Of a stretch of DNA of 35,543 nucleotides, positions 1,939-8,651 are shown in pieces. The DNA comes from Gammaproteobacteria bacterium (lineage in GTDB: Bacteria; Pseudomonadota; Gammaproteobacteria; SZUA-229), in the NCBI GenBank assembly GCA_015488885.1, contig WFMW01000010.1:1-35543 (forward strand), given 5' to 3'. The position numbers and the translations under genes are program-made. Numbering within the stretch: position 1 is the stretch's first letter; the number at the start of each line of letters is the position of its first letter. The notes beneath the pieces are model-generated. The model was not told the origin of the DNA, ran no database searches, and worked only from the letters and a program-made list of their open reading frames with translations.

Positions 1939-2036
1939 GGTGACATTTATATCGTGACTTAATTCATTAAGTATATATTAACTTACTGTTTTATTTATAT
2001 ATTTACATATTTATTTGGTGACATTTAACGTGACTT
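1939..2036 (+). promoter_or_regulatory. Direct repeat upstream of and over the Fic gene start
   Basis: Two near-identical copies of a motif reading GGTGACATTTA, a short spacer, then CGTGACTT lie at 1939-1960 and 2017-2036, 78 bases apart. Each holds an SD-like GGTGA 8-10 bases before a GTG codon. In the first copy that GTG is followed at once by ACT TAA; in the second it opens the Fic reading frame. The pair could be an operator for autoregulation or a duplicated translation-initiation region. Neither role is proven. Confidence 0.4.
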
Positions 2037-3295
2037 TTTCAGTAACAAAAAATGGCGTTTTAACGGTTAAAACACACCGTTCAGGGCATTTTACATTTGA
2101 AATTGGTTTGGATTACACCCAGCTAGACACATTAAAACAGTTGACTGAACAGGCGTATGCTCGCTTTGCCAGTATGCCGAAAGTTGGAGACATTGCCAAT
2201 CAACTAGAAAGGTTAAGTGTAGTAACGTCTGTTTATAGCACTAATACTATTGAAGGTGGTGATTTAACAGAAGAAGAGACTGCTAATGTACTAAATCAGG
2301 ATCCTACAACAGTAAAAAAACAATCTGATCAAAGAGTCGTTAACCTAAAATCCGCATATAATCTGGCAGAAGATGTTTCAAAAATGATCTTTCTTGATGT
2401 AAGTGAGGAAGAGATTGAAACCCTTAAGATCCCAGGGACTATTACGTTAAATATAAAAGATTACATGATTAAAGACCTCCATAAAATTATTACGCATAAT
2501 TTAGAGCATGAAGATAATATTCCGGGGCAATATAGGAACAACCCAAGGGAGCGGAGAACGCAGGTTGGGGATAAAAATCATGGAGGGGTATACGCACCAC
2601 CAAAATGCTTAAATGATATTAAGCTGCTTATTGACGCATACGTGTATTGGGCGAATTCTCCCCCAGTAAGTGCTCTACCGCCATTATACAGAGCGCCATT
2701 GCTTCATTATTATTTTGAGCGTATCCATCCTTTTTGGGATGGTAATGGTAGAACAGGAAGGGTAGTTGAAGCAATGGTGCTACAGGCAGCAAACTATAAG
2801 TACGTTCCTTATGCTAATGCAAAATTTTATTTAGATAATATTGATACATATTTTACTTTGTTTAACACATGTAGAAAGCGTGCAGTAAAAAGAGCGAAAG
2901 ACCCTAATACCGATTTTGTGAGATTTCACTTAACAGCTACACTGTCTACAGTTAACAGGTTACAGGATAATGCAAACCATATAATCTCAAAGTTTTTGTT
3001 TGATGCTAATTTAAATTTTTTGCACACAACTAAAAAAATAAATGACAGACAGCATACTGTAATTTCACAATTATCCACTAACCCTGCAACAGGACTCAAA
3101 GGTAGTTTATCAGTACAACCCTGGTACACTTCTCTTTATAGGAACCTTACAGACAGAACGAAGATTAGAGATATAAATAAACTAATAGAATTAGAGTTGA
3201 TAGTAAGAAACAAGAATGGAGATATTGTTGTCGAGTATGAAAAGCCTAATATTACACTCGCAAATTCACCGATTACATCTATTGAGTACACATAA
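2030..3295 (+). CDS. Fic family protein (class II, putative AMP-transferase)
   Basis: The protein has a canonical Fic motif, 'HPFWDGNGRTGR', near residue 240. Its histidine is the catalytic base and its NGR binds nucleotide phosphate in AMPylating Fic enzymes. An inhibitory-helix motif of the (S/T)xxxE(G/N) type, 'STNTIEGG', lies near residue 75, N-terminal to the Fic core, which makes it class II (self-inhibited). 'GQYRN' and 'GGVYAPP' precede the core as in other Fic proteins. The C-terminal ~90 residues look like a winged-helix module. Start codons TTG 2015, GTG 2018 and GTG 2030 are all in frame; I chose 2030 because GGTGA stands 8 bases upstream. The target is unknown. It may be a solitary regulator or toxin, since no partner antitoxin is adjacent. 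Confidence 0.88.
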   Translation: MTFSVTKNGVLTVKTHRSGHFTFEIGLDYTQLDTLKQLTEQAYARFASMPKVGDIANQLERLSVVTSVYSTNTIEGGDLTEEETANVLNQDPTTVKKQSDQRVVNLKSAYNLAEDVSKMIFLDVSEEEIETLKIPGTITLNIKDYMIKDLHKIITHNLEHEDNIPGQYRNNPRERRTQVGDKNHGGVYAPPKCLNDIKLLIDAYVYWANSPPVSALPPLYRAPLLHYYFERIHPFWDGNGRTGRVVEAMVLQAANYKYVPYANAKFYLDNIDTYFTLFNTCRKRAVKRAKDPNTDFVRFHLTATLSTVNRLQDNANHIISKFLFDANLNFLHTTKKINDRQHTVISQLSTNPATGLKGSLSVQPWYTSLYRNLTDRTKIRDINKLIELELIVRNKNGDIVVEYEKPNITLANSPITSIEYT

Positions 3296-3500
3296 CGCTG
3301 AGCTAATTTAACGATTTTACACAGAGCAGAGCCTCAGCGCCTGGCGTGTAAAACCAGTCCGCAATTCTGAGGATATAATACTTAATTATACTACCAGTGT
3401 ATCACGCGCATTATTAAGCAAGTTAAACAATACCTGTTGCATATAGCTTCCATTATCTCAATATAATACGCTCAATAGTGCTTATTTTTTCAATATTGGC

Positions 3501-3698
3501 TTAAAATGGAATTGATTCGTCATCATCGTAAGGCATCATGTCACTCATTAAATCAAGAAACACACCGAGTGATTTGCATAAATTCTTTACTGTTTTACTG
3601 TACGTCAGTTTTTCTTCTGGTGTTTTTGCTTTGCCCATTGCTTTCAGGGCCGCTTCTATTTCGGTTGAGATTCCAGTCATTATTTTTTCAGTATCCAT
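3501..3698 (-). CDS. Small acidic-tailed protein with SSB-like C-terminal tip (unknown function)
   Basis: A 65-residue protein starts at ATG 3698 and is preceded by a strong Shine-Dalgarno (GGAGG, 4 bases before the ATG). The body is predicted helical and rich in K, E and A ('EIEAALKAMGKAKTPEEKL'), with a hydrophobic stretch 'SLGVFLDLMSDMM'. The C-terminus is 'MPYDDDESIPF': three aspartates, then I-P-F as the last three residues. That closely resembles the DDDIPF tip by which single-stranded-DNA-binding protein recruits repair and replication partners. I do not recognise the family. It lies 60 bases upstream of the prfC end and is read in the opposite order, so an operon with prfC is not indicated. 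Confidence 0.65.
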   Translation of the reverse strand: MDTEKIMTGISTEIEAALKAMGKAKTPEEKLTYSKTVKNLCKSLGVFLDLMSDMMPYDDDESIPF

Positions 3699-3757
3699 GA
3701 TTCCTCCGGTTCATTCTATTTTGAATTATTCATATATTAAACAGGGTTAAGGGTAGA

Positions 3758-5353
3758 TTAATAAATGCCATGTTCACGGGTGGCCAGAAATTGAATCTCC
3801 GGCCATTTTTCTATGGTCATATCGAGGTTTACCCGGGTGGGTGCAATGTAAGTCAGATCACCGGCATGGTCGAGTGCCAGATTAGCGGCATGGCGATTTT
3901 TAAACCGGTTTAGTTCTTTGTCATCGTCGCATTCTACCCAGCGGGCGGTGGTGACGTTAATCGCTTCAAAATCACAGCTGACCTTGTATTCATTAAGCAA
4001 ACGATGTTTCACCACTTCAAACTGCAAGACCCCGACTGCGCCTAATATCAGGTCGTTATTATTCAGTGGTCGATACAGTTGTGAGGCACCCTCTTCACAC
4101 AACTGGATTAAACCTTTCTGCAGGGCTTTCATTTTCAGCGGGTCTTTAAGCCGGGCGCGACGAAATAATTCCGGCGCAAAATTTGGGATACCGGTAAAAG
4201 CCAGATCTTCACCCAGCGTAAAGGTATCACCAATTCGCATGGTGCCATGATTGTGCAGGCCGATAATATCACCGGTGAACGCTTCATCCACCTGCTCACG
4301 GTCTGCGGCCATAAAGGTGACGGCATCAGCCAGTTTAATGTCTTTACCCAGACGCACATGTTTTACCTTCATGCCCTTCTGATAGGTACCTGAACAGATA
4401 CGCACAAAGGCAATACGGTCACGATGCCCCGGATCCATATTCGCCTGGATTTTGAAAACAAAACCGCTAAATTTCTCTTCTTCAGGATTTACCACACGGC
4501 TGCGGGTTTCACGTGGTTCAGGAGGCGGCGCATACTTGTCAAGCGCATCCAGCAATTCTCTTACCCCAAAATTATTAATCCCCGAACCAAAAAATACCGG
4601 CGTGAGTTCGCCGCGCTGGTAGGCATCCAGATCAAAAGCATGACTGGCGCCTTTAACAAGCTCGATTTCATCACGCAGTTCATCTGCCACGCTACCCAGA
4701 ATGTCATCCAGTTGCGAATTATCCAGACCTTCAATCACATCCCCCTGCTGAATTCTTCCACCATGGGTAGCACTGAACAGATGCACTTTGTTTTCTACCA
4801 GATTAAACACACCTTTAAAGGCTTTACCCATGCCGATGGGCCAGGTGATGGGAGCACATTTTATGGATAATATATTTTCAATTTCATCGAGAAGATCAAT
4901 CGGATCACGCGCTTCCCGATCCATTTTATTGATAAAAGTGATAATCGGTGTGGTGCGCAACCGGCACACGTCCATGAGTTTAATGGTACGTTCTTCGACC
5001 CCTTTTGCCGCATCAATTACCATTAAGGCCGAATCTACCGCAGTCAGGGTGCGGTAAGTATCTTCGGAAAAATCGGCATGACCTGGGGTATCGAGCAGAT
5101 TGATAATGCAGTCTTTATGGGGAAACTGCATAACCGATGAGGTAACTGAAATGCCACGCTGTTTTTCCAGCTCCATCCAGTCAGAGGTGACATGACGAGC
5201 AGCCTTGCGCCCTTTAACTGTGCCAGCCATTTGAATCGCGCCACTGAATAACAGTAGTTTTTCAGTCAATGTGGTTTTACCTGCATCCGGGTGCGAGATA
5301 ATTGCAAACGTGCGTCGCCTTTTAATTTCATTGGTATAATTACTGTCTGACAA
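3758..5353 (-). CDS. prfC: Peptide chain release factor 3 (RF3)
   Basis: RF3 is a ribosome-dependent GTPase that removes RF1/RF2 after translation termination. G motifs are intact: G1 '[13 protein letters not shown]', G2 '[11 protein letters not shown]', G3 '[16 protein letters not shown]', G4 '[10 protein letters not shown]'. The later RF3 signatures '[19 protein letters not shown]', '[18 protein letters not shown]' and '[16 protein letters not shown]' are also present. I place the start at TTG 5351-5353 (531 residues, near the E. coli length of 529) because GGAG lies 8 bases upstream. A longer frame to 5389 would add 12 residues not seen in the family. Confidence 0.96.
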
Positions 5354-5517
5354 ACTCTTTTCTCCAAATAGGTACACAGTTATGTACACAATAATAAATA
5401 TAACTCTTAAGCCTTGATATCGACAGTAAGGACCACCCAGAACCTGAGACTAAGCCAACAAAACCTCCGTCAAAGCGCTTAAAAAATAGCTGGTCATTAT
5501 ATCCCAAGTTGCACACC

Positions 5518-5695: not shown

Positions 5696-6037
5696 TTAAG
5701 TATAACTTATTGAGGCGAAAGGTATCCTGACACAGGGGGTCATCGAGAGTTCGAGATAATGCGCCTTACCTTGAAGAGAAAGCGCAGTTTTTGCCGCAGG
5801 ATGTAACGAGGAGCCTAACTGGGCTTGCAGTGCATAAACCGCCCCAAGGTAATCAACCTGATCGCCATAACGTACTAAAGCGCCCGTACCTATAGACTCA
5901 AACCAGCGACTTTTTTTGTAGCGCTTTTGCAAATCCAGGCTGTAGCCCTGTTCCACCAACCAGGAGGAAACAAGAACAGTGCCGAGAGGCTGCGTGCTTA
6001 ATAAACTGTTTAGTTTAGATTCTTTTACGGTACTCAT
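5696..6037 (-). pseudogene. Truncated AbiEi-type antitoxin (N-terminal DNA-binding domain only)
   Basis: The first ~95 of 113 residues match the N-terminal domain of AbiEi-family antitoxins of type IV toxin-antitoxin systems: 'KLNSLLSTQPLGTVLVSSWL', 'GYSLDLQKRYKKSRWFESIG', 'GALVRYGDQVDYLGAVYALQ', 'LHPAAKTALSLQGKAHYL'. Family members usually run to about 250 residues or more with a C-terminal neutralising domain. Here the frame ends soon after the winged-helix part with an unrelated tail ('MTPCVRIPFASISYT'). No AbiEii nucleotidyltransferase toxin gene is adjacent. It may be an inactivated antitoxin or a surviving stand-alone repressor. Confidence 0.65.
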
Positions 6038-7091: not shown

Positions 7092-8651
7092 ATGGCAGCC
7101 CCGTCAGAAAAACTCGCCCGGTCTCTCGAAGCCTTGAAGGCACTTCAAGATCATGGGGTAGTCGCTATCCACTCCAGCGACCTGGAACGTACCGACCGGG
7201 AGCGTCTTGTTAAGAACGGCTTTCTGCAACCCGTCATGAAGGGCTGGTACACCCCATCTCGCCCTGGCGAGGTAGCCGGGGAAAGTACAGCATGGTATGC
7301 CTCATTCTGGAATTTTTGCGCCTCGTATCTGAATGAACGTTTCGGCACAGACTGGTGCCTGTCACCAGAACAATCCCTGTTATTGCATGCGGGCAACAGA
7401 AGCGTACCGTGCCAGCTTTTGGTCCGTTCGCCAAAGGGAGATAACAAGATCACAGCACTCCAACATGACACCTCACTCTTGACTGTCCGCTACAACATGC
7501 CGAAGAAACAGGACATAGAAACAGTAGATGGCCTTCGTCTATATACCCTGGTCCCGGCCTTGATCGATTGTTCGCCTGGATTATTCCAACAAAATCCGAC
7601 TGACATTCGCGCCGCACTATCTACAATTTCCGATGCCTCTGAAATCCTTGCAAAGCTCCTGAAAGGTGGACACACCACTATCGCCAGTCGTTTGGCTGGC
7701 GCATTCCGCAATATTGGCCGTAATCGTATTGCCGACGATATTGTTACAACCATGCGAGCTGCCGATTATGACGTACGAGAATCTGATCCGTTTGAAACAA
7801 AACCGCCTGCCATTTTATCCGGCAGAGAACGATCCCCTTACGTTAATCGCCTGCGCCTGATGTGGCATGCAATGCGCAATCCTGTTATCGAACGGTTCCC
7901 GGAAGCGCCGGGTATCCCCAAAGACACCAAGACTTACATGCAACATGTTGATGATGTATATGTCACTGATGCCTATCACTCCCTGTCGATTGAAGGTTAT
8001 CGCGTCAGCACCGAATTGATTGAGCGCGTACGTCAGCAAAGCTGGAACCCGGACGATAACGAAGAAGACCGGGAGCAACGTAATGCCATGGCGGCAAGAG
8101 GCTACTATCTGGCTTTTCAAGCCGTCAAAGAAAGCCTTACTAGGGTTCTCAAGAATGAAAACCCCGGCACCGTTGTCGATAATGATCACGGTACATGGTA
8201 CCGGGAACTGTTCGCGCCCAGTATTACGGCTGGCATTTTGGATATTGCTGATCTTGCCGGTTATCGTAATGATCAAGTCTATATCCGCTACTCCCAACAC
8301 ACACCGCCAAACCGGGACGCAGTACGTGATCTTATGCCTGCGCTTTTCGATCTCATCAAAGAAGAACCCAACCCGGCCGTTCGAGTTGTACTGGGACATT
8401 TTATGTTTGTGTATATCCATCCGTATATGGATGGCAACGGGCGTATGGGACGTTTTTTAATGAACCTAATGCTTGCCAGTGGTGGCTATCCCTGGACGGT
8501 TGTCCCATTGGAACGGCGTGACGAATATATGGCAGCATTGGAAGAGGCCAGCGTTAGCCAGAATATCATACCCTTTGCTGATTTTCTGGCTGGACTGGTT
8601 AATGCCGGACTGGAAGGAAAACCTGCGCCTGCACTTCCTTCTTCAAAGTGA
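7092..8651 (+). CDS. AbiEi-like DNA-binding domain fused to a Fic domain
   Basis: The 519-residue protein begins with an AbiEi-type winged-helix region (about residues 8-60: 'ALKALQDHGVVAIHSSDLE', 'LVKNGFLQPVMKGWYTPSRP'), followed by the AbiEi-like body to about residue 250. The C-terminal half is a Fic domain with the active-site motif 'HPYMDGNGRMGR' (HPF replaced by HPY; catalytic H and NGR retained). An upstream inhibitory motif 'SLSIEGYR' fits (S/T)xxxEG. This suggests a self-inhibited nucleotidyl-transferring Fic enzyme linked to its own repressor. It has its own phased upstream repeats and a downstream terminator, so it is probably a single-gene unit. Its target is unknown. A role in phage defence or as a toxin is inference from the domain types and the surrounding mobile debris. 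Confidence 0.85.
   Translation: MAAPSEKLARSLEALKALQDHGVVAIHSSDLERTDRERLVKNGFLQPVMKGWYTPSRPGEVAGESTAWYASFWNFCASYLNERFGTDWCLSPEQSLLLHAGNRSVPCQLLVRSPKGDNKITALQHDTSLLTVRYNMPKKQDIETVDGLRLYTLVPALIDCSPGLFQQNPTDIRAALSTISDASEILAKLLKGGHTTIASRLAGAFRNIGRNRIADDIVTTMRAADYDVRESDPFETKPPAILSGRERSPYVNRLRLMWHAMRNPVIERFPEAPGIPKDTKTYMQHVDDVYVTDAYHSLSIEGYRVSTELIERVRQQSWNPDDNEEDREQRNAMAARGYYLAFQAVKESLTRVLKNENPGTVVDNDHGTWYRELFAPSITAGILDIADLAGYRNDQVYIRYSQHTPPNRDAVRDLMPALFDLIKEEPNPAVRVVLGHFMFVYIHPYMDGNGRMGRFLMNLMLASGGYPWTVVPLERRDEYMAALEEASVSQNIIPFADFLAGLVNAGLEGKPAPALPSSK

Follow-up and report, generated by a model that had tools for sequence, protein, structure and literature searches.

The stretch of DNA analysed here, referred to as the window, is the 35,543-nucleotide contig WFMW01000010.1 of a gammaproteobacterium, and it carries a gene for a 65-residue protein whose tail closes in a tip like that of SSB. 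In the reading that we prefer, and to which we give an even chance, the protein would act as a small adaptor that spreads by horizontal transfer and carries a borrowed SSB tip: the tip would dock in the pockets that otherwise receive SSB, and a helical hairpin would hold a second partner. The SSB tip is seen as the calling card of SSB, and a mobile bearer that is not SSB would compete, or adapt, for enzymes such as PriA, RecO, and ExoI. Such a role would also be the first functional lead for a family whose gene is present, unannotated, in 49 of the 257 genomes of the class of genome G552 (itself counted), which we take to be a class of Desulfobacterota. The SSB-tip pocket is a proposed drug target, as set out in a passage of PMC5872125, and a natural, genetically encoded ligand of it would be a ready tool.

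Gene and predicted structure

On sequence evidence the open reading frame is a real gene, because dN/dS over the first 54 codons is 0.05–0.13 (dS 0.6–1.6) in 15 pairs among six rows of close homologues. The strong Shine–Dalgarno sequence of the original prediction is found as a GGAGG motif (Table 1), and a comparable ribosome-binding site, again read directly from the sequence, precedes most homologues. The protein ends in MMPYDDDESIPF, with YDDDESIPF as its last residues, exactly as first described.

Table 1. Features of the 65-residue protein gene and its immediate neighbours in the window.
Feature	Position	Strand	Remarks
65-aa gene	3501..3698	minus	ATG start, TAA stop; predicted helical hairpin and acidic tail ending IPF
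GGAGG ribosome-binding site	3703..3707	minus	4 bases before the ATG; sequence read directly
Helix 1 codons (residues 3–22)	3633..3692	minus	predicted, AlphaFold2 model
Helix 2 codons (residues 27–54)	3537..3620	minus	predicted, AlphaFold2 model
Disordered acidic tail codons (residues 55–65)	3504..3536	minus	predicted, low pLDDT; acidic tail in 77/77 members
SSB-like tip DDDESIPF	3504..3527	minus	sequence; host SSB ends DDDIPF
prfC (peptide chain release factor 3)	3758..5389	minus	neighbour, 59 bases upstream of the 65-aa gene
Fic-domain gene	2015..3295		convergent with the 65-aa gene, on its other side

An AlphaFold2 model built from a 28-row alignment (pTM 0.61) contains two helices followed by a disordered tail, in keeping with the earlier claim that the protein has no OB fold. 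The block pLDDT is 90–94 in residues 11–50 and falls to 65, then 53, in the tail. The protein is thus predicted to be a helical hairpin with a floppy acidic tail. By comparison with the SSB family TIGR00621, the OB-fold ssDNA-binding domain is replaced by the modelled hairpin, which matches no NCBIfam or Pfam entry, and the disordered tail with its acidic-IPF tip is present.

No match that would name the family was obtained in Pfam, NCBIfam, PHROGs, or PADLOC, nor in the PDB. Scans of 28 members against the first four of these collections returned only scattered weak matches. The lowest E-values among phage and defence families were 0.0095 for PHROGs and 0.023 for PADLOC, and no more than four of the 28 members gave either match. 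A profile search of PDB sequences gave a best E-value of 0.19 (1ygm), which is chance level, and comparison of the AlphaFold model with solved and viral structures yielded none at E 0.001 or better. No literature on such a protein was found among open-licence papers.

Homologues and their distribution

In all, 77 distinct members were compared, the nearest six being 77–85% identical to the window protein over the alignment. The gene is present in 2 of 58 genomes, since among 57 other relatives only G021 carries it, at another place. Exact peptide patterns, run against a single genome for each species, recovered 6 loci. The window's class, with 368 further genomes scanned, contributed 5 more once one false match had been removed; one of these five, in G152, encodes the same protein as L004. 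A scan of 398 genomes of the window's phylum found none with the family gene besides the window's own. Elsewhere, the phylum of the L007 genome has the gene in 15 of 297 genomes and that of the Sabulitectum genome in 3 of 42, each count including the genome named. From the collection we dropped L017, L023, L038, and L127, which duplicate L004, L007, L008, and L024, and also G074/L022, whose match falls within a frame of 1786 codons resembling a sensor kinase.

Two minor features of individual members were recorded. In L026 and L028, the family start is closely preceded by a short frame that contains KVIPLF and looks conserved between the two loci. In G902:C156, two copies of a member without Pro-Phe, with the same core, lie 8.7 kb apart in one genome.

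Conservation of the C-terminal tip

The tree was built from the first 54 alignment columns alone, which leaves the tail without influence on the grouping; it has 75 rows, two having been omitted for their short cores. The window protein falls among 20 rows on one side of a branch with an SH-aLRT of 90 over these 54 columns, which is not strong support. Within this branch the tip carries Phe in 20 of 20 rows, Pro in 19, and Ile in 17, conservation that exceeds the mean of 77% identity per column in the core. Protein lengths range from 65 to 79 residues, and the tip always stands at the very end. The exceptions are L142, which lies inside the branch and ends STQF, and L005, with Asn in place of Ile. 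In the 19 Pro-Phe rows of the first 28 homologues, the Pro codons are CCA (11), CCT (6), and CCG (2), the Phe codons are TTT (16) and TTC (3), and all three stop codons follow; the Pro, Phe, and stop codons vary synonymously, and therefore it is the residues, not the DNA, that are kept. The tip of the window's branch is thus a selected C-terminal motif.

A tip of this kind is rare among other reading frames. The loci, 283 kb in all, contain 330 non-overlapping ORFs of at least 60 residues. Seventeen of them end in Pro-Phe, and 16 of these have at least four acidic residues in the preceding ten; all 16 are family members, and an acidic Pro-Phe end occurs in none of the other 314 ORFs. We also scanned the 2.63-Mb genome of the window for DNA encoding the pattern D/E-x-hydrophobic-P-F-stop. 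Among the six matches, only ssb (DDDIPF) and the 65-residue protein gene end plausible genes; three of the other four lie in frames of 11–53 codons and one is not a stop.

Family-wide, the tail is acidic in every member, with at least three acidic residues in the last 12, and the Pro-Phe end that would be expected of a ligand of the SSB pocket, conserved after acidic residues in the window's branch, is found in 26 of 77. Seven of the Pro-Phe ends lie outside the branch: DIPF and DLPF twice each, DVPF, DKPF, and PEPF. The tip therefore looks like a trait of one branch, plus seven cases elsewhere, on the tree as it stands. We considered several independent gains of Pro-Phe, five changes being needed on the best tree, yet an AU test does not reject a single origin (p 0.185).

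This distribution bears on an alternative that we consider unlikely, if worth weighing: that the acidic tail is itself the functional unit, through contact with a basic partner or by providing charge or solubility, and that Pro-Phe is a lineage-specific addition that contacts, for example, the partner of the hairpin, not SSB-tip pockets. The universally acidic tail, the restriction of Pro-Phe to a minority, and the Asp or Glu that is the last residue in 33 of the 51 other members are all as this alternative would have it. A tail selected for charge alone, however, needs no fixed terminus, and in the window's branch it is the acidic run that varies in length and content, the terminal Phe and Pro being kept. 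Pro-Phe ends are also strongly clustered on the tail-free tree, with 5 changes against 21.7 in shuffles.

Comparison with SSB

The likeness to the SSB C-terminus (DDDIPF; PMC5872125, PMC10018359, and PMC7145534) comprises an acidic run, Ile-Pro-Phe at the exact C-terminus, a disordered tail, and a folded core. An SSB match was obtained in 26 of 28 host genomes, and the readable host SSBs end in DDDIPF, DDEIPF, EDDIPF, or close variants, one being DEVPF. The two proteins differ in the core, which is an OB fold in SSB and a predicted helical hairpin in the 65-residue protein. They differ too at the tip, where residue −4 in the window's branch is mostly Pro or Ser, not Asp, and residue −5 is Gly in 5 of 20 rows. 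Unlike ssb, the family gene is rare and mobile.

The original prediction, that the protein may compete for or mimic the SSB-binding pockets of repair enzymes, is on these comparisons partly supported. In the window's branch no other part of the tail is as well conserved as the tip, which resembles the readable ends of host SSBs; against the prediction, 51 of 77 homologues lack Pro-Phe. Homologues without the acidic IPF end, named at the outset as a refuting observation, thus exist, but almost wholly outside the window's branch. The prediction also passes over the conservation of the hairpin core, something that a bare decoy could do without. Since those 51 members keep the acidic tail without Pro-Phe, the function shared by the whole family cannot be binding to the SSB pocket, and the core must have a further role.

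Possible mechanism

According to passages of PMC5872125, the SSB-tip pocket of DnaG binds the carboxylate of the terminal Phe through a salt bridge, and its basic rim receives the acidic residues; similar pockets are described there for ExoI, RecO, chi, and PriA. The window protein offers the same terminal Phe carboxylate and acidic residues, and for this reason we favour binding of the tip in such a pocket, which we rate above each of the other explanations, with a probability of roughly one half. The free C-terminal Pro-Phe and its acidic run would dock into the SSB-tip pocket of one or more host enzymes of DNA metabolism, candidates being PriA, ExoI, RecO, RecQ, RecG, DnaG, and Pol III chi, and the docked tip would compete with SSB. 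The conserved hairpin, which is probably self-associating, might in turn hold a second partner, a step suggested more faintly than the docking. The outcome would be either that the second partner is brought to the enzymes or that the enzymes are kept off SSB-coated DNA. The predicted combination of a disordered tail and a folded core, as in SSB, is a point in favour of the adaptor.

A bare decoy would be a mobile inhibitor that ties up the partners of SSB, for instance to damp SOS or fork restart, and has no second partner. Such a role would suit the scattered, horizontally moving gene and its SSB-like tip. We regard it as improbable. Twelve of the 54 core columns are invariant in 19 rows of the branch, and the core exists without the tip in other lineages, which indicates work of its own; moreover, three scans of viral contigs, and scans of phage and plasmid records, returned no family member. 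It is because the hairpin core is conserved and is also present without the tip that we favour an adaptor over a decoy. Small anti-SOS proteins of mobile DNA, PsiB and RamT/RamA, have likewise been proposed to act at the ssDNA–RecA–SSB step; the passages on them in PMC11841131 mention no SSB-like tip, and the likeness is one of functional analogy only.

Some periplasmic PDZ proteases recognise a free C-terminal Phe, but it is very improbable that the tip serves as a degron read by a protease or PDZ domain, as the protein starts in a charged helix with no signal peptide and the acidic-IPF combination matches SSB.

For the adaptor, a broader history can be proposed tentatively, and we hold it to be possible although doubtful: an unnamed, widespread family of hairpin proteins would have gained an SSB tip and become mobile, yielding a natural, stand-alone adaptor that alters which proteins encounter the replication-restart and recombination enzymes of the host and that works in distant bacteria through a shared pocket.

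Mobility and genomic context

The window's branch moves horizontally between distant bacteria. Its rows come from Gammaproteobacteria, Fermentibacterota, and the phylum around the L007 genome (titled Deltaproteobacteria), and its neighbours vary between loci, with L130/L136 among the near-identical pairs that are exceptions. Among members without Pro-Phe, several groups have common neighbours, a pattern consistent with vertical descent. Across the loci, neither SSB partners nor repair genes recur as neighbours, which is a point against the proposed docking.

An old association of the window gene with prfC was considered and rejected: the stretch just behind prfC holds no such gene in 29 other genomes, and the G021 copy lies elsewhere. 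In two distant members without Pro-Phe, L148 and L163, the gene likewise follows prfC immediately and in the same orientation, an adjacency that we provisionally take as coincidence. Farther along the window, a second, different Fic-domain gene lies at 7092–8651, placing both Fic genes within 7 kb, and an AbiEi-antitoxin N-terminal domain is encoded between them at 5696–6037.

In G021 (L061), the family gene and a neighbouring pair, which we read as HigBA, are bracketed by attC-like hairpins at 164–229, 495–573, and 1168–1226. This locus has 6 attC-like sites in 8 kb, compared with 0.25 per shuffle, and an integrase remnant lies on the contig at 2797–2946, 2.4 kb off. Like an integron gene cassette, the gene thus stands between attC-like sites with an integrase remnant on its contig, and it is most likely a cassette. 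The window locus differs in having no attC above chance: the first 12 kb contain 1 site, away from the gene, compared with 1.25 per shuffle. Eight other loci scanned whole have 0–3 sites each, none convincing.

The integron was not retained as a vehicle for the family in general. Under strict settings an attC scan had two matches in the window, one of them directly behind the gene at 3306–3427; this match was not recovered under the criteria used for the counts above, and a looser scan of the flanks found 7 sense-strand sites where 7.0 were expected. No enrichment of integrases was evident: matches passed the cut-off in 6 of the 8 genomes that carry the gene and in 28 of 58 relatives. The motif TTATGTGC, which closely precedes the gene in L002, L003, and L019, is suggestive of an integron and no more. 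SSB melts folded attC sites (a passage of PMC8946536), which invites the idea that a cassette-borne protein with an SSB tip tunes integron recombination; most loci show no integron.

Other members occupy different surroundings. In G259 (L060, 1502–10226), the family gene and a neighbouring pair, presumably VapBC, lie inside a gene set with matches to BrxD/SngB and BrxHI/SngC. In L041 (G552), at 3061–5186, a member without Pro-Phe lies directly upstream of another gene, the start of which we take to read like carbon monoxide dehydrogenase.
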